The notes under the pieces: model-generated
The model's database searches: none
What the model saw: only the letters and a program-made list of their open reading frames with translations
Told to the model about the DNA's origin: nothing
Position numbers and translations under genes: made by a program
Shown here: in pieces, positions 13,065-45,435 of the stretch
Layout of the letters: the number at the start of each line of letters is the position of its first letter
How positions within the stretch are numbered: position 1 is the first letter of the stretch
NCBI GenBank assembly: GCA_020853845.1
Contig: JADYYD010000266.1
Span: forward strand, 1-54,425
Reading direction: 5' to 3'
DNA: 54,425 nt
Source of the DNA: Candidatus Melainabacteria bacterium
GTDB lineage: Bacteria > Cyanobacteriota > Vampirovibrionia > Obscuribacterales > Obscuribacteraceae

Positions 13065-14009
13065 GTGCAATTGATTGTTTTGGGGACGGGCGCCGGCGGC
13101 GGGTGTCCTCAATGGAATTGCGGCTGCGCCAATTGCACTTTTGCAAGAGAAAACCCACTAAGCGCGCGCACGACCGATTCTTTAGCTGTTCGGTATAAGA
13201 ACCCAGGCCGGGATAACTGGGCAATTGTCAATCCCGGTGTGGATTTGCGCCACCAGTTGGCAAAACATGCTCAATTGCAACCGCCTGCGGATGGCGCCGT
13301 AAGAAATACCCCCATTCAGTCTGTAATCGTAACGGACGGTGCGCTCGATCACACAATGGGCTTGATTAACCTGCGAGAGGGCGCCGCACTGAAAGTGTTC
13401 GCTACGGGCATCGTCCTGGAGTTAATGGAAACCGCTTTTCCTGTGCGGTCGGTGCTGAAAAACTACGCACGGCTCGAATTCGTGAAAATCATCCCCGGCC
13501 AGCCGTTTTTTCTGGCTGACGACCTCAAAGTCACCGCCTTTGCCTTAAGCGACAAACTGCCCAGGTATGCAAAAGACTCAGAAAGCCTGCTCACTGCCGA
13601 ATTCTCAGGCGCAGTAATCGGTCTCAAATTCGAATCCGCCGACTCGGTCATAGCCTACGCTCCACAGATAGGCGTCTGGGATAGCCGGGTCGACTCTTTG
13701 TTCTCGGGAGCCGAGATAATACTTGCCGATGGAACTTTTTATACAACCGATGAGATGTCATCACTTGGCCTCGAGGCGGGCTCCGCAGAAAGCATGGGAC
13801 ATCTGCCCCTCTCGGGCGAAGGCGGCATCCTGGCTCATTTGCATGAAGCTAAAGCGCCGGTAAAACTACTGACTCATATCAACAACACCAACCCGATTTT
13901 GCGCCATAATTCCCCCGAAAGACAGGCGGTCGAAAACGCCGGCGTCAAAATTGCAGTCGATGGCATGTGCCTGTCGGCAGGCAAAGTCGGGGAAATGCTT
14001 CGTGATTGA
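13065..14009 (+). CDS. pqqB: PqqB, PQQ biosynthesis metallo-hydrolase
   Basis: Encodes 314 residues from a GTG start. It belongs to the metallo-beta-lactamase-fold PqqB family, which hydroxylates the Glu-Tyr intermediate during PQQ formation. The N-terminal LGTGAGGGCPQWNC and GCANC segments give the zinc-binding cysteines typical of PqqB, and TDGALDHTMGL and the late LTHINNTNP supply His/Asp metal ligands. Length matches the family (about 300). The 3' end overlaps pqqC by 8 bases. Confidence 0.96.
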   Translation: MQLIVLGTGAGGGCPQWNCGCANCTFARENPLSARTTDSLAVRYKNPGRDNWAIVNPGVDLRHQLAKHAQLQPPADGAVRNTPIQSVIVTDGALDHTMGLINLREGAALKVFATGIVLELMETAFPVRSVLKNYARLEFVKIIPGQPFFLADDLKVTAFALSDKLPRYAKDSESLLTAEFSGAVIGLKFESADSVIAYAPQIGVWDSRVDSLFSGAEIILADGTFYTTDEMSSLGLEAGSAESMGHLPLSGEGGILAHLHEAKAPVKLLTHINNTNPILRHNSPERQAVENAGVKIAVDGMCLSAGKVGEMLRD

Positions 14010-14703
14010 TGTAAAGTCCAGCTTGGCAATATTGTCGCAGCGAGAATTCGTCGACAGGCTCGAAAAAATCGGCGAGCAAAAATATCACGACAAGCATCCG
14101 TTTCATCAGCGCATGCACGAAGGCACGCTGACCAGACAGGAAATGCAGCGCTGGATTGCCAATCGCTTCTACTATCAGAAGTGCCTTCCCATCAAGGATG
14201 CGCTCGTGCTTTCAAAGCTGCCGGAAAGAAGCGATCGTATTCGCTGGCGTGAACGAATCATCGACCATGACGGGCTGTCTGAAAATGACGGCGGCATAAA
14301 TGCCTGGCTGCAATTGGCGAAAGCAGCGGGAATATCGAGAGAAGAACTCCTGGACGGTCACCATTTTTTGCCGGGGGCGATCTTCGCTGTCGATGCGTAT
14401 GTTAATTACTGCCGGCTCAATCCATGGTGGCTGGCTGTCGCCAGTTCCCTGACCGAAGTCTTCGCGCCCAGGCTCGTCAGTTACAGAATCGAAATTTTGG
14501 AAACTCATTATTCGTGGATAGACAGTGAAGGCCTGAATTATTTTCGAGCCCGGCTCAGTCAAGCGCCTCGAGATTCAGAACATGGACTGGAGCTGGTCAT
14601 GCGCGCCGCCGACACCTACGAAAAACAAATGCAGGCGCTGAAAGCCGTAGAATTCAAATGCGATGTACTCTGGTCTCTTTTGGATGCAATCGAACATGGC
14701 TGA
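14002..14703 (+). CDS. pqqC: PqqC, pyrroloquinoline-quinone synthase
   Basis: Encodes 233 residues from the GTG at 14002. The open frame extends to 13951, but that start would run deep into pqqB. PqqC is a cofactor-free oxidase that performs the final ring closure and eight-electron oxidation to PQQ. HPFHQRMHEGTLTRQEMQRWIANRFYYQ, quoted here in two parts HPFHQRMHEG and RWIANRFYYQ, contains active-site His, Arg and Tyr residues of the TENA-like fold. The 3' end overlaps pqqD by 8 bases. Confidence 0.95.
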   Translation: MIDVKSSLAILSQREFVDRLEKIGEQKYHDKHPFHQRMHEGTLTRQEMQRWIANRFYYQKCLPIKDALVLSKLPERSDRIRWRERIIDHDGLSENDGGINAWLQLAKAAGISREELLDGHHFLPGAIFAVDAYVNYCRLNPWWLAVASSLTEVFAPRLVSYRIEILETHYSWIDSEGLNYFRARLSQAPRDSEHGLELVMRAADTYEKQMQALKAVEFKCDVLWSLLDAIEHG

Positions 14704-14989
14704 TGGATTGGAAGATATAGTCAAAGAGTCGATATTGCAATTGTCGCCGGGCGTGCGCCTGAAGGACGATGAAGAAAGGCAATGCAAACTGCTGCTTATG
14801 CCGGAATGCATCGTTAAATTAAATCGTTCGGCAAGCGAAGTTCTCGAACTGGTGGACGGGCATCGAACAATTGAAGTGATTTACTCCGAACTGGCGGAAC
14901 GTTATGAAGACGACACGCTGCACCGCGATCTGGCTGAATTTATCATGGATGCGCTCAGTCGCGGATGGATCGAAGTGAAGTCGGATTAG
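14696..14989 (+). CDS. pqqD: PqqD, PqqA-binding chaperone
   Basis: Encodes 97 residues from ATG 14696, which overlaps the pqqC stop. It is a RiPP recognition element: PqqD holds the PqqA leader and presents it to the radical SAM enzyme PqqE. The winged-helix pattern of the family is visible (LSPGVRLKDD, then LNRSASEVLELVDGHRTIEVI, quoted in parts LNRSASEVLEL and VDGHRTIEVI). Separate rather than fused to pqqC or pqqE. Confidence 0.93.
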   Translation: MADGLEDIVKESILQLSPGVRLKDDEERQCKLLLMPECIVKLNRSASEVLELVDGHRTIEVIYSELAERYEDDTLHRDLAEFIMDALSRGWIEVKSD

Positions 14990-15005
14990 GCGATGCAAGA
15001 ATGAA

Positions 15006-16097
15006 ATGACAGGCATCGTTAAACAGCGCCCTTTCACGATCACGATGGAACTTACTCATCGCTGCCCGCTTAGCTGCTTGTACTGTTCCAATCCGACTGA
15101 ATTGATTGCAAAAGAAAATGAATTGCCGATCGATGATTGGCTTTCGATTGTCGATCAGGCGGCTGACTTGTCGATTGTGCAAGCTAATCTAACCGGTGGA
15201 GAACCGCTTGCCTACCCGGGACTTGCCATGATTGTTTCTCAACTCAAGAAACGCGACATTTACAGCAATTTGATCACCAGCGCAATCGGGCTTACGGAAA
15301 CGGTTTTGCAAAAATTAATTGCTTGCGGTCTTGAAAGCATTCAAATCAGCCTGCAATCGCTAGATGCATCAACGTCAAAATTGATTGCCGGTTGGAATGC
15401 GCAAGAGCAAAAGTTGTGCGCGCTCAAACTGGCGCTCAGTGAAAAAATTCCGGTGTCACTAAATGTGGTGCTGCATAAGCATAATATCGGCGAAGTAGGA
15501 GCAATTATAGATTTTGCAGCAGCAATGAACGTGAAACGGCTTGAGCTGGCCAGCACACAGTTTTACGGCTTTGCCCTGGCCAATATGGAAAATCTTTTGC
15601 CCTCCGAGCAACAGATGGCAGAGGCCATTTCGGTTTATGACTCAAAGAAAAAAGAGCTTGCCGGAAAGTTGCAAATGAGTTGGGTGATAGGCGACTATCT
15701 GGAAAGGTCTCCGAAACCGTGCATGGGCGGCTGGGCGAGTCAACATATCGTGGTGTCCGCCGATGGTACTGCTTATCCTTGCCTGGCTGCCGGCGCGATA
15801 AAAACGCTGACTTTTCCCTCGATAAAAGAAAGGTCTCTCAAATGGATCTGGGATGATTCACCGGCATTCAATGCTTTCAGAGGATTCGACTGGATGGTTG
15901 AGCCCTGCCGCACATGCGAGTTTCGCGAAAATGATCTGGGCGGCTGCCGCTGCCAGGCATTTCTTTTGACCGGTGATGCCGCCCAAGCTGATCCTGTTTG
16001 CAAACTTTCACCACATCATCAAATTGTGGATGAGAAAATCAAATCTGCAAATGCACCGGATCACCCCCGCAAAGAATTGCTCTACCGGTTACACTGA
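15006..16097 (+). CDS. pqqE: PqqE, radical SAM PqqA cross-linking enzyme
   Basis: Encodes 363 residues. The radical SAM cluster motif CPLSCLYC (CxxxCxxC) lies at about residues 20-27, and TGGEPL binds S-adenosylmethionine. The C-terminal SPASM region has the expected Cys cluster (PCMGGWAS, YPCLAAG, CRTCEF, GGCRCQ, DPVC) for auxiliary Fe-S clusters. It forms the C-C bond between Glu15 and Tyr19 of PqqA. It is last in the pqqABCDE order, 16 bases after pqqD. No pqqF/G peptidase follows. Confidence 0.96.
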   Translation: MTGIVKQRPFTITMELTHRCPLSCLYCSNPTELIAKENELPIDDWLSIVDQAADLSIVQANLTGGEPLAYPGLAMIVSQLKKRDIYSNLITSAIGLTETVLQKLIACGLESIQISLQSLDASTSKLIAGWNAQEQKLCALKLALSEKIPVSLNVVLHKHNIGEVGAIIDFAAAMNVKRLELASTQFYGFALANMENLLPSEQQMAEAISVYDSKKKELAGKLQMSWVIGDYLERSPKPCMGGWASQHIVVSADGTAYPCLAAGAIKTLTFPSIKERSLKWIWDDSPAFNAFRGFDWMVEPCRTCEFRENDLGGCRCQAFLLTGDAAQADPVCKLSPHHQIVDEKIKSANAPDHPRKELLYRLH

Positions 16098-39635: not shown

Positions 39636-40506
39636 TTTACGGTCAGTTTCTCTTTTTGGAAGCTGTGTTAGCGTTTACAAGAAATCCGCGCGGATCGATC
39701 TTGATCTCGCGGATTTCTCGCGTTTGCGTTTCCAGTTCGAAAACGCCAACCAGTTCATGCTTTTAGAAATTCGATGCGCGATGGAAAAAATCAAAGCAAT
39801 TTTTCCTTTGACCAAATGTTTCTGTTCACTTTCTCAGAATGTGTATATGCATGTTAAATACACCGCAGTTTTTTTCAAAGTCGGAAAAAACCTGATAAGA
39901 CAAACTCAAAAAGTGATCGCGAAGCGGTAATTCGAACTGTCGCAGCAAATGCATTTGGTCCGACTACAGTCAATGGAAAGCAGCTATTCATGCGCTTTTA
40001 TGCACATCGCTATTTGGTGCATGCAGCTATTTTTTTTGCTTGCCGATTTAGTTTTGAAAGAGGTCGAATTTCCAATTTTCGACTTCGATAGATCCGGCTC
40101 CGAAAAAAAATTGTTTCAAAACGCGAAAATTTTTTTTGCCTCCCCCGAACAGGGGGCCATCAGAGGTGGTGCCTATTTATAATTAGCCTGCAATGCGGGT
40201 TTCATTGAAATGAAACGCGGTTTTGTGCGGTGATTTTGTGTAATTCGATCACTTGCACGCGTCGATCCATATATTGCAATTTCGGCCAATAGAAAGTAAT
40301 GTATTAAACGTGTGGTGTGATTGATAGAGTGCAAATTGAAATCGAACTCAAATCAAATCGAAATCGAATTGAACTCTTAGTATCAATGGTGGCATAGGGT
40401 CCGACTCAAATAGAGACAGTGACACGGTTCTAAGCACAAAACTATTACCAGTCCAGTGCAAGGCAACTTTCCTAACCGCCATATCAAATTCTCGGGAGGA
40501 GAAAAA
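39636..40506. other. AT-rich gene-free interval upstream of H1-like gene
   Basis: This is 0.87 kb without a convincing gene. Long A and T runs are frequent. At 40337-40378 a short GAAATCGAAT/GAACTC-like sequence repeats imperfectly. Two open frames (39568-39930, 39949-40182) show unbiased, low-information residues and weak ribosome sites, so are not called. A 10-11 bp hairpin lies near its left end. Confidence 0.6.
39680..39718. terminator. Hairpin after deaminase gene
   Basis: AGAAATCCGCG and CGCGGATTTCT (39680-39690 and 39708-39718) are exact reverse complements with inner GATC pairing. It is 45 bases past the stop; the T tract is weak. Confidence 0.55.
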
Positions 40507-41073
40507 ATGGCAGCTAAACCTAAGAAGAGAAAAGCAGCAGCTAAGAAAGTAAATCCTGCTGCAGCTATGGCCGATGAAGCTGGCGCCGAAACCGCCAAGC
40601 CGAAGAAAGCCGCTAAGAAGAGAACTGCTAAGAAAGCAACAGCTAAGAAAGCAGCTCCTAAGAAAGCAGCTAAGAAGACTACTGCTAAGAAAGCAGCCCC
40701 TAAGAAGGCCGCTGCAAAGAAAGCTGCTCCTAAGAAAGCAGCTGCAAAGAAGCCTGCTAAGAAGGCTGCGCCGAAGAAAGCCGCTAAGAAGGCCGCTCCT
40801 AAGAAAGCAGCCAAAAAAGCAGCTCCTAAAAAAGCAGCAGCTAAGAAAACTACTGCTAAGAAAGCAGCTCCTAAAAAAGCAGCCGCTAAGAAAGCAGCCC
40901 CTAAGAAAAAAGCAGCAGCCAAAAAAGCACCAGCTAAGAAAGCTGCAGCCAAAAAGGCCCCTGCGAAGAAAGCCGGCGCCAAAAAGGCACCAGCAAAGAA
41001 GAAAACCGCCAGAAAGTCGTCAGCGAAAAAGAAAGTAGCTGCTCCGGCATCTACTGATGGTGGTATGGGCTAA
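40507..41073 (+). CDS. Histone H1-like Lys/Ala repeat protein
   Basis: Encodes 188 residues from ATG 40507 with a very strong ribosome site (GGGAGGAG, 40494-40501). After about 40 residues nearly the whole protein is [10 protein letters not shown]-type repeats, about a third lysine. This matches H1-like DNA-compacting proteins (Hc1, AlgP, cyanobacterial H1-like). Repeats are encoded by varied codons, so this is selection on protein and not recent tandem duplication. A strong terminator follows; it is a single-gene transcript. Confidence 0.9.
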
Positions 41074-41848: not shown

Positions 41849-41968
41849 CGATGCTTCGCTCCCAATCCGGTCCACTGACAACCTTTGCGCTTTTGTACCT
41901 TTATATATGTATTTAGCCAGGCAAAATCGCGCCAGGGAAGTCAAATGTTAACGGTCAATAATAAGTCG

Positions 41969-41998
41969 TTGAATTGGTTAGCGGCTTATTGGTAAATA
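41969..41998 (+). promoter_or_regulatory. Promoter candidate for the RiPP-like locus
   Basis: TTGAAT (41969-41974) and TAAATA (41993-41998) are separated by 18 bases, 43 bases before the first small Cys gene. A CAATAA/TTATTG inverted pair overlaps it. Visual match only. Confidence 0.4.
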
Positions 41999-42040: not shown

Positions 42041-42412
42041 ATGGAAAAGAAAAACAGAATCGATGCAGCATTGATTGCGGCAGTTGTAAGCCTTGTAGCA
42101 GCAGGTCCGGCCTTGGCAGAGACGAAAGAAGTCTCGAAATCCAGCACTACTACCGAAAAATCCACAAAAGTGACTGATAAAAAAGACTCTACAACCACCA
42201 GCACCAAAGTCAAAACCACGACTAAAGAAGATGGAAAAGAGCCTGTCACTACCGTAAAGGCCACGGAAAAGACCACCAAGAAATCGGGCAAAGAGTCCGC
42301 ATGCGGCAAAGGTTCTTGCGGAACAGACGAGAAAGGAGCCAAAGCGGCTTCCGATGCGCACAAGAAGGTAGAAACCACGACCACTACAAAAACCAAGACC
42401 GAAAAGAAATAG
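42041..42412 (+). CDS. Small secreted protein with ACGKGSCG motif, candidate MNIO RiPP precursor
   Basis: Encodes 123 residues from ATG 42041, with AAGGA upstream. A signal peptide (about 1-26, ending ALA) is followed by about 60 residues dominated by Thr and Lys. A single two-Cys motif, ACGKGSCG, contains Cys88 and Cys93, and a charged tail ends with Thr/Lys repeats. The signal peptide plus Lys/Thr linker matches the other small gene at 42598, so they are probably related. A short Cys/Gly/Lys core is reminiscent of HvfA-like precursors (EGKCG). Modification is inferred, not seen. Confidence 0.75.
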   Translation: MEKKNRIDAALIAAVVSLVAAGPALAETKEVSKSSTTTEKSTKVTDKKDSTTTSTKVKTTTKEDGKEPVTTVKATEKTTKKSGKESACGKGSCGTDEKGAKAASDAHKKVETTTTTKTKTEKK

Positions 42413-42479
42413 CGCTTCAATGTAAAGAAATTTGAAAGCAGTCATCCCGTGGTATTCCGGGGGATTGCGATTTTACACA

Positions 42480-42508
42480 GCCATTACATACAAATGGCAT
42501 TTTATTAA
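42480..42508 (+). terminator. Weak terminator candidate between the two small genes
   Basis: GCCATT (42480-42485) and AATGGC (42493-42498) with a 7-nt loop, followed by ATTTTATTAA. If real, the two precursor genes are separate transcripts. Confidence 0.4.
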
Positions 42509-42532
42509 TCCGTTTGACATAGGATGACCCAC

Positions 42533-42592
42533 ATGTGCCCATAAGCAGGGAGATTGGCTCCCTGGGGCTCATTGTCTAAACGTTCAGGGAGG
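42533..42592 (+). promoter_or_regulatory. Leader hairpin with alternative pairing to ribosome site
   Basis: CAGGGAG (42546-42552) pairs with CTCCCTG (42558-42564) over an ATTGG loop. GCCC (42537-42540) pairs with GGGC (42565-42568) across a 5-nt ATAAG bulge, and ATG/CAT extends it. The same CAGGGAG heptamer recurs at 42585-42591 as the Shine-Dalgarno of the 42598 gene. Thus the CTCCCTG strand can pair with either copy, the arrangement expected of a translational on/off switch. Confidence 0.55.
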
Positions 42593-42597
42593 ACAAC

Positions 42598-42921
42598 ATG
42601 CAAAAAACACAATTGGCAGCTGCTTTGGTAGCAGTACTCGGCCTTACCTTCAACAGCGCTGCACGTGCTGCTGATGAAACCACTACCGAAACCAAAGAAA
42701 CCACCAAGGTAGAAAAGAAGACCGAAAAGAGCACCAAGAAAGCTAAAGGTTCTAAAGGCTCTGAAGCTTCCTGCAAGGGCAAAGAAGGCTCCTGCAAAGG
42801 CAAAGAAGGATCTTGCAAAGGCAAAGAAAGCTCCTGCAAAGGCAAAGAAAGCTCTTGCAAAGGCAAAGAAAGCTCCTGCAAAGGCAAAGAGAGCTCCTGC
42901 AAAAGCAAAGAATCGAAGTAA
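42598..42921 (+). CDS. Secreted heptad-repeat Cys peptide, candidate MNIO RiPP precursor
   Basis: Encodes 107 residues with GGGAGG 5 bases upstream of ATG 42598. A signal peptide (about 1-25, ending ARA) and a Thr/Lys/Glu linker precede a C-terminal core of seven heptads: C-K-G-K-E-G-S twice, then C-K-G-K-E-S-S four times, then C-K-S-K-E-S-K. The cysteines are at 59, 66, 73, 80, 87, 94 and 101. The following genes encode a DUF692 oxidase and a DUF2063 protein, whose known substrates are Cys-rich secreted precursors. The core differs from the EGKCG type of HvfA. Alternatively the seven cysteines could bind metal unmodified. Confidence 0.88.
   Translation: MQKTQLAAALVAVLGLTFNSAARAADETTTETKETTKVEKKTEKSTKKAKGSKGSEASCKGKEGSCKGKEGSCKGKESSCKGKESSCKGKESSCKGKESSCKSKESK
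42772..42918 (+). repeat. Seven 21-bp tandem repeats encoding Cys heptads
   Basis: TGC codons begin at 42772, 42793, 42814, 42835, 42856, 42877 and 42898, exactly 21 bases apart. Units share the AAAGGCAAAGAA core with silent and G-to-S changes, so the array grew by in-frame duplication and is retained as protein. Confidence 0.95.
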
Positions 42922-43005
42922 AACGTAGCGCTCACTATTTGTGCGGCGCTATTTTTTCATCAACTTTTTGCCGGTCGTTTTCAGCTAAGGCTCACCTGAA
43001 AAGTT

Positions 43006-43971
43006 ATGCCTGACTTTCTAGACACGAAAAAGCGGCTACCCAATCTAGGCATTGGGTTAGGCTTGCGCAGAGAGTTAGCATCGCAAACACTGGAGAGCAG
43101 AGGCCGGATCGACTGGCTTGAGTTGGTGCCAGAAAACTATATGGGGCTAGGGGGAGCTTGCCGCGAACGGCTCGAGTCGGCGCGCGAAAAGTTCCCTCTA
43201 GTCACACATGGAATCAATCTATCAATCGGAAGCACGGATGACCTCAACAGTGAGTATTTGAGCAAGCTGAAAAAATTGCTCGATTTCGTTGACGCTCCCT
43301 GGTTTAGCGATCATCTCTGCTTCACGAGTTGCGACGGCATTTACATGCACGATCTCTTGCCTGTTCCCAGATCCAGGGAGGCAATTGATTTGATCGCAGA
43401 AAAAGTAAAACGGATACAAGGAACAATCGAACGTCCATTCTTGCTGGAAAATATTTCCTACTACATGAACGTTCCCGGCTGCGAAATGAATGATTCGCAA
43501 TTCCTGGCGCAAGTCGTTGAAAAAGCTGATTGCGGCTTGCTTCTCGATGTAAATAACGTTTACGTCAACAGCCTTAATCATCATTTCGATCCTTTCCAAT
43601 ATCTCGATCAAATTCCCCTGGAACGCACTGTTCAAATACATGTCGCCGGGCATAAGCAAGGATGCGAACACGTTATCGACACGCACGGTGCACCGGTTGT
43701 GGAACCTGTTTTCGAATTGCTTCAATACGTCCTGGAGCGCATTGATGCCAATGGCGTAATGCTGGAAAGAGACCAGAATTTCCCAGAATTCGAAGAGATT
43801 CTCAGTGAGGTCGATCGAATTCGCGAAATCAGCGCCGCCGCATCCGAATTGAAGGCACAGGGCAAAGCGCCGAAATCAGCATCTGCAATTAAACAGTTGG
43901 AGCGCAAACAACCGACGGTGAGCAGAAAAGAACTGGCGGAGGTAAAACACGCTCGTGTCCTCTCTGCATGA
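43006..43971 (+). CDS. DUF692 multinuclear non-heme iron oxidase (MNIO, BufB/HvfB type)
   Basis: Encodes 321 residues with a TIM-barrel pattern. Candidate iron ligands in order: Glu43 (VPENY), His68 (THGINLSIGS), His103 (SDHLCF), Glu148 (LLENI), Asp181 with Asn183/184 (LLLDVNNVYVN), His212 and His216 (HVAGH), Asp225 and His227 (DTHG), Glu254 (LERD). This is the set of the MNIO family, which includes MbnB, BufB and HvfB and modifies Cys residues of peptides (oxazolone/thioamide or thiooxazole). The gene starts 84 bases after the heptad gene and overlaps its DUF2063 partner. Its substrate is inferred to be the upstream peptides. Confidence 0.95.
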   Translation: MPDFLDTKKRLPNLGIGLGLRRELASQTLESRGRIDWLELVPENYMGLGGACRERLESAREKFPLVTHGINLSIGSTDDLNSEYLSKLKKLLDFVDAPWFSDHLCFTSCDGIYMHDLLPVPRSREAIDLIAEKVKRIQGTIERPFLLENISYYMNVPGCEMNDSQFLAQVVEKADCGLLLDVNNVYVNSLNHHFDPFQYLDQIPLERTVQIHVAGHKQGCEHVIDTHGAPVVEPVFELLQYVLERIDANGVMLERDQNFPEFEEILSEVDRIREISAAASELKAQGKAPKSASAIKQLERKQPTVSRKELAEVKHARVLSA

Positions 43972-44761
43972 AATAGAACGCACTTTAACTTCGATTTGGA
44001 TGGAGAAACAGCCAGTTGAAAGCGCTCAGTCTTTGAGCTGTATCGTTGAAGGCGAACAATTCGATGAAAATGGAGCGCGACTTTACGCTCGCTTGATCGG
44101 CTATGGGCACAGCGATGTCCTCAGTTCAATTTATCCATACTGCCAAAAGGTTCTGAATCGCAGTTGGGAAAAGACTCTCAAACAATACGTGCAGAGTTTT
44201 CCGCCCGATCATTTCCATTTGAACAGCTCAGCAAGAAGATTTCCGCAGTTTCTCAAAGAGCAGTGCAAAGAAATTCTGGACAAACATCCATATCTTGCAG
44301 AATTGGCTGACTATGAATGGCTCGAGATGGAGCTTCTGGAAGCCGATACTAAAATCAGCGTCAGCGAAAAAACACCGCTGCAAGATCCTAGTGTGTTCGT
44401 TTCGCTCGGTCCTATCTTGAATCAAACTCTCCAGATCCGCACTTATGAGTTCCCCATTCAAGAAATTGTCGATTTGATTGAAAGCGGCAAAGGTTTTCGC
44501 AAAAAATTCAAACCGAAACAGTCTCATGTCGCCATGTACAGAGACCCGTTCAGCCATAGAGTAAGAATCGTCGATATCGATGACAATGCCCGCATATTGC
44601 TGTCGGAATCCGGCCATCTTTCGTACGGCGATCTGGCTCGTCGAGCCGTCGAACTCAATCCGGAAAGAGATCCGCAAAAGACCGTTGCGGATGTTATCGA
44701 GCTTGTCGAATATTTCCATGAGATCAATTTATTTGTTGGTGACATAAAAATAGGGGCTTAA
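43955..44761 (+). CDS. DUF2063 RiPP partner protein (BufC/HvfC type)
   Basis: Encodes 268 residues from GTG 43955, overlapping the MNIO gene by 17 bases. The N-terminal region (about 8-100, GARLYARLIGYGHSDVLSSIYP, parts ARLYARLIGYG and HSDVLSSIYP) is the DNA-binding-like DUF2063 domain; the C-terminus (about 170-265) is winged-helix-like and ends near LFVGDIKIGA. In known systems this protein binds the leader and delivers the peptide to the MNIO enzyme. Strict overlap indicates coupled translation. Confidence 0.92.
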   Translation: MSSLHEIERTLTSIWMEKQPVESAQSLSCIVEGEQFDENGARLYARLIGYGHSDVLSSIYPYCQKVLNRSWEKTLKQYVQSFPPDHFHLNSSARRFPQFLKEQCKEILDKHPYLAELADYEWLEMELLEADTKISVSEKTPLQDPSVFVSLGPILNQTLQIRTYEFPIQEIVDLIESGKGFRKKFKPKQSHVAMYRDPFSHRVRIVDIDDNARILLSESGHLSYGDLARRAVELNPERDPQKTVADVIELVEYFHEINLFVGDIKIGA

Positions 44762-44766
44762 ATTTC

Positions 44767-45435
44767 ATGCACAGGAAGAACGTCAAAGTTTATGCGGCTG
44801 TCAGTTTGGCCGCCGTCGCAACTACATTTGTTGCAGCTCAGTTGCCGGCTTTAAGCAAGCAACTTACCTACGTTGTCGATGATCCGAAAAAACGCGATTC
44901 GGTCAGCTTCACTTCCGACGCGCCGATCGAACTCATTGTCGGAAAAACCGGCGGCATCAAAGGAACAATAAAAATCGATGAGACCATGGATCTCTCGAAG
45001 CCCTTCACTGCTGTATTCGACGTCGACCTGGCCTCTATCGATACTGGCATTGCGTTGCGCAACGAGCACATGCGCGATAATTTCCTGGAAACAAAGAAAT
45101 TTCCGAAAGCCACTTTCACAGTAAAGAATCAACCGGGCGTAACCGGCATTTTGAAAGACAGACAGAAGATGACGATCAAAGCAACCGGTGATTTTGCCCT
45201 GCACGGAATTACAGTCAAAAAGTCAGTCCCCGTAGATATCACGTTTTACAAAAGCTGCAAGGACACGCAAGAAAAGTTCGAGCGCTGCGATCTGCTGCAA
45301 ATCAAAAGCACCTTCAATGTTCCCTTCAAGGACCACGGCATCAAGCGACCGGAAGTTGTTTTCCAAAAGCTGGCTGACACGGTGATTGTAACCATTGCCG
45401 CAACAGCTACTCGCGATTTGAGCAAAGCTCAATAA
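44767..45435 (+). CDS. YceI-family periplasmic protein
   Basis: Encodes 222 residues, 5 bases after the DUF2063 gene. A signal peptide (about 1-30) precedes a YceI-type lipocalin-like barrel: FTSDAPIELIVGKTGGIKG, DVDLASIDTGIALRNEHMR and GDFALHGITVKKSVPVDI (cited in short parts elsewhere) are the expected blocks. YceI proteins bind isoprenoid or other lipids in the periplasm. Its linkage to an MNIO operon suggests a carrier or reductant role for the product, which is inference. Confidence 0.9.
   Translation: MHRKNVKVYAAVSLAAVATTFVAAQLPALSKQLTYVVDDPKKRDSVSFTSDAPIELIVGKTGGIKGTIKIDETMDLSKPFTAVFDVDLASIDTGIALRNEHMRDNFLETKKFPKATFTVKNQPGVTGILKDRQKMTIKATGDFALHGITVKKSVPVDITFYKSCKDTQEKFERCDLLQIKSTFNVPFKDHGIKRPEVVFQKLADTVIVTIAATATRDLSKAQ

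Follow-up and report, generated by a model that had tools for sequence, protein, structure and literature searches.

The closest described relatives of the locus analysed here are the captophorin (MNIO-PME1) clusters, namely the oxazolins and fontiphorins (HvfABC, FonABC; the 'Lys-Cys' captophorins), bufferin 2 (Buf_6/12Cys; the 'Cys-Lys' captophorins) and bufferin 1 (DUF2282). All MNIO-PME1 pairs characterised so far install 5-thiooxazoles, and FonB, an enzyme of the EGKCG type, left motifs unprocessed when a charged residue followed the Cys, NACKG among them (PMC13097082). Thiooxazole-type metal-binding RiPPs have so far come mostly from Pseudomonadota. We analysed a window of 54,425 nucleotides from a Candidatus Melainabacteria contig, and consider it probable that it encodes a 'captophorin' pathway, similar to those for bufferins and oxazolin, that has a new family of precursors and is a two-precursor YceI variant. 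Such an assignment would extend these RiPPs to the Obscuribacterales, an order of uncultured, non-photosynthetic cyanobacteria within which the pathway is near-universal.

Gene content and layout of the locus

Five consecutive genes, encoding the precursors A1 and A2, an MNIO, a DUF2063 protein and a YceI-family protein, lie on the plus strand (Table 1), and their coordinates, strand and profile matches agreed with the gene set and rightward order originally predicted. A2 lies upstream of the MNIO gene, from which it is separated by 85 bp. As in captophorin clusters, a Cys-rich precursor that looks secreted by eye adjoins the MNIO, and a DUF2063 partner with a predicted RRE-like fold is found beside the enzyme. 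This arrangement recurs across the Obscuribacterales, where A2 adjoins the MNIO and DUF2063 partner in nearly all main-clade loci. Neither copper genes nor known copper operators turned up in the locus.

Table 1. Features of the precursor-MNIO locus, with positions in the window
Feature	Coordinates	Strand	Remarks
Precursor A1	42041..42412	+	123 aa, 2 Cys; signal-peptide-like N-terminus, Thr/Lys-rich linker, Cys-Gly-type core KESACGKGSCGTDEKGAKAA
A1 putative Sec signal peptide	42041..42118	+	MEKKNRIDAALIAAVVSLVAAGPALA; read by eye
A2 promoter-like element	42471..42525	+	TTTTACAC-N3-CATTACAT ... ATTAATCC ... TAGGAT; 11-bp-phased repeats plus -10-like box
Precursor A2 with Cys heptad array	42598..42921	+	107 aa, 7 Cys; stand-alone copies also occur
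A2 putative signal peptide/leader	42598..42669	+	MQKTQLAAALVAVLGLTFNSAARA; leader profile and by eye
Heptad array	42772..42918	+	CKGKEGS x2, CKGKESS x4, CKSKESK; Cys codons at 42772, 42793, 42814, 42835, 42856, 42877, 42898
MNIO (DUF692/MbnB_TglH_ChrH)	43006..43971	+	321 aa; PF05114 E 8.9e-100; 3BWW by sequence and fold
DUF2063/PME-type-1 partner	43955..44761	+	268 aa; GTG start; overlaps MNIO end by 17 bp; PF09836 E 2.9e-7
YceI-family protein	44767..45435	+	222 aa, secreted-looking; PF04264 E 2.2e-20; equal position in 19 MNIO loci, all with A1

The MNIO enzyme and its partner

The MNIO scored 333.7 bits against PF05114 (cut-off 25). Its ligand-type residues (H68, H103, E148, D181, N184, H212, D225, H227 and E254) and the base D256 are invariant among seven homologues and align with those of 3BWW and MbnB; the equivalents of HvfB N175, D242 and H244 are also present, as is an Arg pair (R21/R22). 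Gln257 occupies the position at which HvfB-type enzymes carry Phe. A fold search with the AlphaFold model of the enzyme returned 3BWW, an MNIO reported to be 72% identical to HvfB, as the best match (E 6e-18), with TglH and MbnB also matching; the AlphaFold models of both the MNIO and its partner were of low to modest confidence. Scores fell below the curated cut-offs of two equivalog models, those for BufB (NF050167; 306.2 bits, cut-off 310) and HvfB (NF003818; 300.8 bits, cut-off 360). A DUF692 tree had been named in the original prediction as a possible source of refutation, and in the tree that we ran the MNIO grouped with HvfB/EGKCG-type enzymes, in a single clade (100/100) with the EGKCG-type references and apart from Buf1 and Buf2.

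The partner scored 31.1 bits against PF09836, above the cut-off of 27.2, and 66.6 bits on the HvfC model, below its cut-off of 142. Since no significant match to the PDB was obtained with its sequence, a fold search was needed, and the best match to its model (pLDDT 59.5) was TglI of TglHI, a known MNIO partner (E 5e-4). With the ligand set and catalytic Asp complete, and 3BWW and TglI as best structural matches, the prediction of an MNIO-DUF2063 RiPP operon whose precursor is of a new Cys-heptad type held up.

Precursor A2 and its heptad array

A2 had been predicted to end in seven exact C-K-G-K-E-[GS]-S heptads; seven Cys are indeed present, but six of the heptads are exact and the terminal one is degenerate. 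The six units comprise five variants at the DNA level and two at the protein level, with mostly synonymous differences, and the 13 units of another array of the order (L172) comprise seven DNA variants and a single protein variant. Because the heptad frame is kept in more than 30 genomes and the DNA copies differ mostly synonymously, the array is not a product of chance. In the order-wide A2 set, neighbouring Cys are spaced by 7 in 102 of 151 intervals, Glu or Asp is found at -3 of the Cys in 173 of 187 cases, and Lys at +1 in 177 of 187. A sample of 385 further genomes from the phylum did not contain the heptad DNA pattern, and profile searches with A1 and A2 matched no NCBIfam or Pfam family. 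Near-identical repeat arrays, which reach 14 Cys in L172, could serve as natural metal-binding polymers.

The precursor had also been described as unlike the EGKCG core. This was half right: Lys follows the Cys and the repeat reads E-G-S-C-K, but A2 keeps the acidic residue at -3, a Glu as in E-G-K-C-G, and the enzyme, which groups with those of the HvfB type, retains the two Arg by which this residue is proposed to be read. Having E[GSA]SCK units rather than the EGKCG repeats of the HvfA family, A2 would work alike but is not a member.

On an A2 leader profile from which the window's genus was left out, the window A2 scored 58 bits and the top ORF other than a heptad precursor scored 9 (n = 4358, this background being ORFs from about 1.2 Mb of loci). 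The A2 signal peptide is conserved far above the N-termini of other ORFs, in line with the suggestion, made for Buf1, that the leader is recognised (PMC12452194).

A conserved promoter-like element precedes A2, and was detected in 29 of 36 A2 upstream regions. Since A2 has a promoter-like element of its own, the locus may be more complex than a single transcription unit. The element shares its position with a terminator-like hairpin (42480-42498) that overlaps it. The repeats recall a PhoB/OmpR-type site, and a Pho-box reading was considered and rejected: the exact pattern occurs once in its own genome, at A2, and a looser form was not found at the pstS loci of the genus. A search for a conserved RNA leader gave neither a consensus fold nor an Rfam match.

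Precursor A1 and the YceI protein

A1 holds one ESACGKGSCG unit and, judged from its sequence, resembles precursors of the EGSCG/EGKCG type, a likeness absent from the original reading. A DNA pattern for the A1 core matched 17 of 53 Obscuribacterales genomes, and a protein motif added one more (G030); the core lies either next to an MNIO and YceI or at the edge of a contig. YceI is confined to part of the MNIO loci, and A1 is present in all 19 YceI loci and in none elsewhere. The two genes change jointly on the enzyme tree, with only two independent A1/YceI changes forced on strongly supported branches. At two loci (L096 and L097), a single peptide that combines A1-like with A2-like Cys motifs is encoded beside the MNIO and YceI. 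A leader common to A1 and A2 was not clearly supported, as A1 leaders ranked 48-1260 of 4358 on the A2 profile, and maturation of A1 by the MNIO is less certain for this reason.

We tentatively suggest that one MNIO with a broadened pocket, in which the Arg pair is kept and Phe is replaced by Gln, may mature both A1 (Cys-Gly) and A2 (Cys-Lys heptad), with YceI as the dedicated periplasmic partner of matured A1. If true, this MNIO pathway would yield two products and employ a new carrier protein. For the YceI family, which is widespread and poorly understood, the strict A1-YceI pairing provides a concrete candidate for a ligand.

Proposed mechanism and alternatives

We propose that in the cytoplasm the DUF2063 partner would bind the A2 leader (signal peptide) and hand every E-[GS]-S-C-K unit to the diiron MNIO, in which R21 and R22 would grip the Glu at -3. 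The enzyme would carry out a four-electron oxidation (-4 Da) of every Cys, a 5-thiooxazole being the most likely product. Exported through Sec, A2 would then provide, in the periplasm, regularly spaced ligands for a soft metal (probably Cu+) and/or thiols sensitive to oxidants. In some lineages, including that of the window, the same MNIO may also mature A1, and the secreted YceI protein may be dedicated to the A1 product as a carrier, shield or partner. Since FonB rejects a charged residue after the Cys, Cys-Lys units would need a changed pocket, for which Q257 is a candidate residue. In this natural enzyme set one specificity position (Phe to Gln) varies with the residue after the Cys, and substrate choice by the MNIO is thus testable.

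The same RiPP pathway may have defence against methionine- and thiol-oxidising stress as its main job in place of copper buffering, metal binding being secondary, which we hold to be possible, though not the likelier role. All but one of the eight stand-alone heptad genes have an ECF sigma factor and a zf-HC2 anti-sigma factor nearby; MsrBA immediately adjoins six of these seven, and the seventh has a weaker MsrBA-like match. A promoter-like motif, GGAATAAA-N13/14-CGTTT, stands just upstream of five of the eight (7 matches in 1.34 Mb, 0.2 expected), and the hybrid-precursor loci sit in the same type of ECF sigma/MsrBA island. The window operon, however, has neither this motif nor ECF sigma/MsrBA neighbours, and the thiooxazole peptides tested in other systems bind copper (PMC13097082, PMC12452194). 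The copper and oxidant readings overlap, because copper stress oxidises proteins too. The motif has three matches elsewhere in the window's own genome, one of them near an ECF/zf-HC2 pair (L181), and no Cys peptide was recognised at these matches.

The chemistry could also differ, with the MNIO installing on A2 an oxazolone-thioamide or another four-electron product. Several Cys products are known from the MbnB, TglH, ChrH and HvfB families, and the combination of Gln257 with Lys at +1 is unlike the characterised EGKCG pairs; nevertheless, the PME1-type MNIOs characterised to date all yield 5-thiooxazoles, and oxazolin has been reassigned to a 5-thiooxazole (PMC13097082, PMC13419390), so that we regard a different product as unlikely. 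A further reading, in which A2 stays unmodified as a Cys/Lys peptide of the metallothionein-like or thiol-buffer kind and the MNIO modifies A1 or something else, would accord with the stand-alone heptad genes that have no adjoining MNIO and with the rejection of charged +1 residues by FonB (PMC13097082). Yet A2 is the sole recognised Cys precursor by the MNIO in about half of the loci, which do not contain A1, genomes with stand-alone copies mostly have an MNIO elsewhere, and the -3 Glu is retained along with the Arg pair of the enzyme. We consider an unmodified A2 very unlikely.

Comparison with known systems

Bufferin 1 shares with the window an MNIO-DUF2063 pair and a signal peptide, but its enzymes, which have E-W-D, make up a clade of their own, and the DUF2282 profile matched neither A1 nor A2. 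MelA/MelH, a ChrH-type system of Melainabacteria (PMC12636315), is likewise an MNIO RiPP and comes from the same bacterial group, but has a large precursor ending in CPACGMG and a distant MNIO (97 against 334 bits on PF05114). The window's own genome holds one system of this type (L183), unrelated to the locus described here.

Bufferin 2 is closer, with a secreted precursor, repeated S-C-K-G and an MNIO with a DUF2063 partner. Its precursor differs from A2 in the CKGxNxCKGxG layout (spacing 6), in its six conserved Cys and in the absence of Glu at -3. Its enzymes, which fall outside the clade of the window MNIO, have no second Arg and carry G or D where the window enzyme has Q257. Peptides like those of bufferin 2 occur in the Obscuribacterales alongside another MNIO clade.

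No description of the heptad peptides, the second partner peptide or the strict YceI link was found in the searchable literature. Oxazolin and fontiphorin share with the window a Sec signal peptide, repeated Glu(-3)-x-x-Cys, the MNIO Arg pair, a DUF2063/RRE partner and a common enzyme clade. The window differs from them in having Lys and not Gly after the Cys, Ser before it, heptad spacing and Gln257 in place of Phe, and its operon carries YceI and a second precursor instead of a DoxX gene. The kind of system is therefore already known, and what is new is the precursor family together with the two-precursor YceI variant.

The operon and its heptad precursor

Gene calls bore out the predicted rightward order of two Cys peptides, a DUF692 enzyme (MNIO), a DUF2063 protein and YceI. 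The N-termini of both peptides, A1 and A2, were judged by eye to be putative signal peptides.

Features of the window and of two compared loci
Feature	Coordinates	Direction	Length	Description
Operon, five genes	42041-45435	rightward		A1, A2, MNIO, DUF2063 protein, YceI
A1			123 aa	first gene; core KESACGKGSCGTDEKGAKAA
A2			107 aa	second gene; Cys heptad array
MNIO			321 aa	third gene; PF05114, E 8.9e-100
DUF2063 protein			268 aa	fourth gene; GTG start; 17-bp overlap with MNIO end
YceI				fifth gene; secreted-looking protein
A2 promoter-like element	42471-42525			between A1 and A2; TTTTACAC-N3-C[AT]TAACCT, further in-phase repeat, TAGSAT box
A1-upstream dyad	41948-41973			genus-conserved, TTAACGG-N11-CCGTTGAA-like, then CTTATTGGTAAATATT
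HC2 protein	40456-41073			Lys/Ala-rich, histone H1-like; upstream of operon
PQQ biosynthesis-like genes	13065-16097			PqqB-, PqqC- and PqqE-like ORFs, by eye
Fusion, locus L106	8222-10669			MNIO-DUF2063-SAM-methyltransferase fusion; TehB-like domain confirmed
Second MNIO locus, L183	3277-6366			own genome, contig C159; MelH/ChrH-like MNIO; two large secreted-looking precursors with C-terminal PACGMG and VACGMG

Seven exact heptads had been claimed for A2; six are exact (CKGKEGS twice, CKGKESS four times), and the terminal seventh is a degenerate CKSKESK. Across the A2 peptides the Cys-to-Cys spacing was 7 in 102 of 151 intervals, and around 187 Cys residues we found Glu or Asp at -3 (173), Ser at -1 (146) and Lys at +1 (177); the unit is therefore E-G-S-C-K. 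The original prediction had set the array apart from EGKCG cores, which holds for the Lys at +1, but the Glu keeps its E-G-K-C-G register, which was missed because the unit was cut as C-K-G-K-E-G-S. Comparison of the units as DNA and as protein indicates that the A2 repeat is under selection as protein, because its copies differ mostly or solely by synonymous changes. The array of L172, a stand-alone heptad gene, has 13 units in seven DNA variants and one protein variant, and the repeats of L169 and L170 follow a similar pattern.

The enzyme and its substrate-reading pocket

The ligand positions and catalytic Asp of 3BWW, TglH and MbnB are conserved in the window MNIO, as are the equivalents of HvfB N175, D242 and H244, which are required for activity (PMC13419390). 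Modelled with AlphaFold at modest confidence (pLDDT 61.8), the enzyme best matched 3BWW (E 6e-18), followed by TglH and MbnB, and the DUF2063 model (pLDDT 59.5) matched the MNIO partner TglI (E 5e-4). In the enzyme tree, the window MNIO fell into one clade (100/100) with four EGKCG-type references, its exact place therein not being fixed owing to long reference branches, and the Buf1 and Buf2 bufferin references lay outside.

An Arg pair has been proposed to read the Glu at -3, and FonB Phe250, replaced by Asp in Cys-Lys enzymes, to contact the residue after Cys, where FonB refuses charged residues (PMC13097082). The window MNIO has the Arg pair (R21, R22), and Gln257 at the Phe position. Nearly all heptad-associated enzymes likewise combine the Arg pair with this Gln (ERDQN); the EGKCG references read ERDFN and the Buf2 references ERDG or ERDD. 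We infer that the change from Phe to Gln may fit the enzyme to a Cys-Lys substrate.

Distribution in the order

PF05114 enzymes occur in 48 of 53 Obscuribacterales genomes, and the named relatives of the window locus are Candidatus Melainabacteria/Obscuribacterales MAGs (58-86% identity). We retrieved and tabulated 80 PF05114 loci with flanks from the order. In the main enzyme clade, 36 loci, the window included, carry a heptad precursor immediately ahead of the MNIO gene; in several of the remaining loci it is lost to a contig end or looser in form (L051, L064, L074, L094). The heptad DNA pattern was present in 33 of the 53 genomes; outside the order, 385 genomes of the phylum were scanned with a tighter form, and none matched. 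A text search of a literature collection for the heptad or A1 core returned no publication, though the supplements of two landscape papers may list them.

Other MNIO arrangements were also observed. At five loci (L043, L046, L049, L057, L066), Buf2-like precursors (CKGxNSCKGKGGC) adjoin MNIOs of a separate clade, some with LEWDxN; a DUF2063 partner was not detected for this clade. Several Obscuribacterales encode MNIO-DUF2063 fusions (~600 aa) or MNIO-DUF2063-SAM-methyltransferase fusions (~810-850 aa), at L103-L108, L098, L101 and L102; these are possibly whole RiPP maturases in a single chain.

A1 is coupled to YceI

Where YceI follows the MNIO, A1 is present at 18 of 19 loci; where YceI is lacking, no MNIO locus has A1. 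The nineteenth (L079) begins at a contig end, and A1 with a cut-off A2 ends another contig of that genome (L176). Genome-wide, the A1 pattern matched only at MNIO-YceI loci or contig edges. On the enzyme tree the A1/YceI label changes about six times; strongly supported branches force just two changes, and A1 and YceI shift together in both. No publication naming YceI together with DUF692 was found in the literature collection searched.

At the first Cys of A1, all 20 units read [ED]-x-x-C-G, and A1 is closer than A2 to EGKCG-type precursors, such as that of a Pseudomonas plasmid (KEGSCGEAKCGADK). Two loci (L096, L097) encode a single peptide combining an A1-like unit with KESSCK, adjoining MNIO, DUF2063 and YceI genes. 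This hybrid supports maturation of both precursor kinds by one MNIO, although the A1 leader has no clear match to the A2 leader, which makes a shared enzyme less certain. The MNIO of L096/L097 has ERDDN, and the island also holds a DUF1223-like gene, ECF/zf-HC2 and MsrBA.

Regulation and stress context

Of the 36 regions upstream of A2, 29 share the promoter-like element, its conservation spanning genera, and it is unique within the window's own genome. Its repeats are phased at 11 bp, which suggests a PhoB/OmpR-family activator. A general Pho box was rejected, as pstS loci lack the element, and no RNA structure was found. The dyad upstream of A1 is a possible operator or promoter.

Obscuribacterales contain eight stand-alone heptad genes (L168-L175), L172 having 14 Cys. 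In seven, genes for an ECF sigma factor, a zf-HC2 anti-sigma factor and MsrBA are found close by, the same island type as at L096/L097; at L171 the MsrBA match is weak and the arrangement different. An ECF-like motif, GGAATAAA-N13/14-CGTTT, lies just upstream of five of the eight. These surroundings tie the heptad family to oxidative or metal stress. DUF1223 is also present at L168.

Proposed pathway

In the favoured reading, the leader would guide the MNIO as it converts each Cys to a 5-thiooxazole while the peptide is still in the cytoplasm, and the product, exported by Sec, may buffer metal or oxidant in the periplasm; some lineages would add a second, YceI-dependent peptide. The pathway type is already known, and the window operon varies it: the Arg pair, Gln257 and the motif E-G-S-C-K would join the -3 Glu reading of the EGKCG-type group to the +1 Lys of the Buf2/Cys-Lys group.
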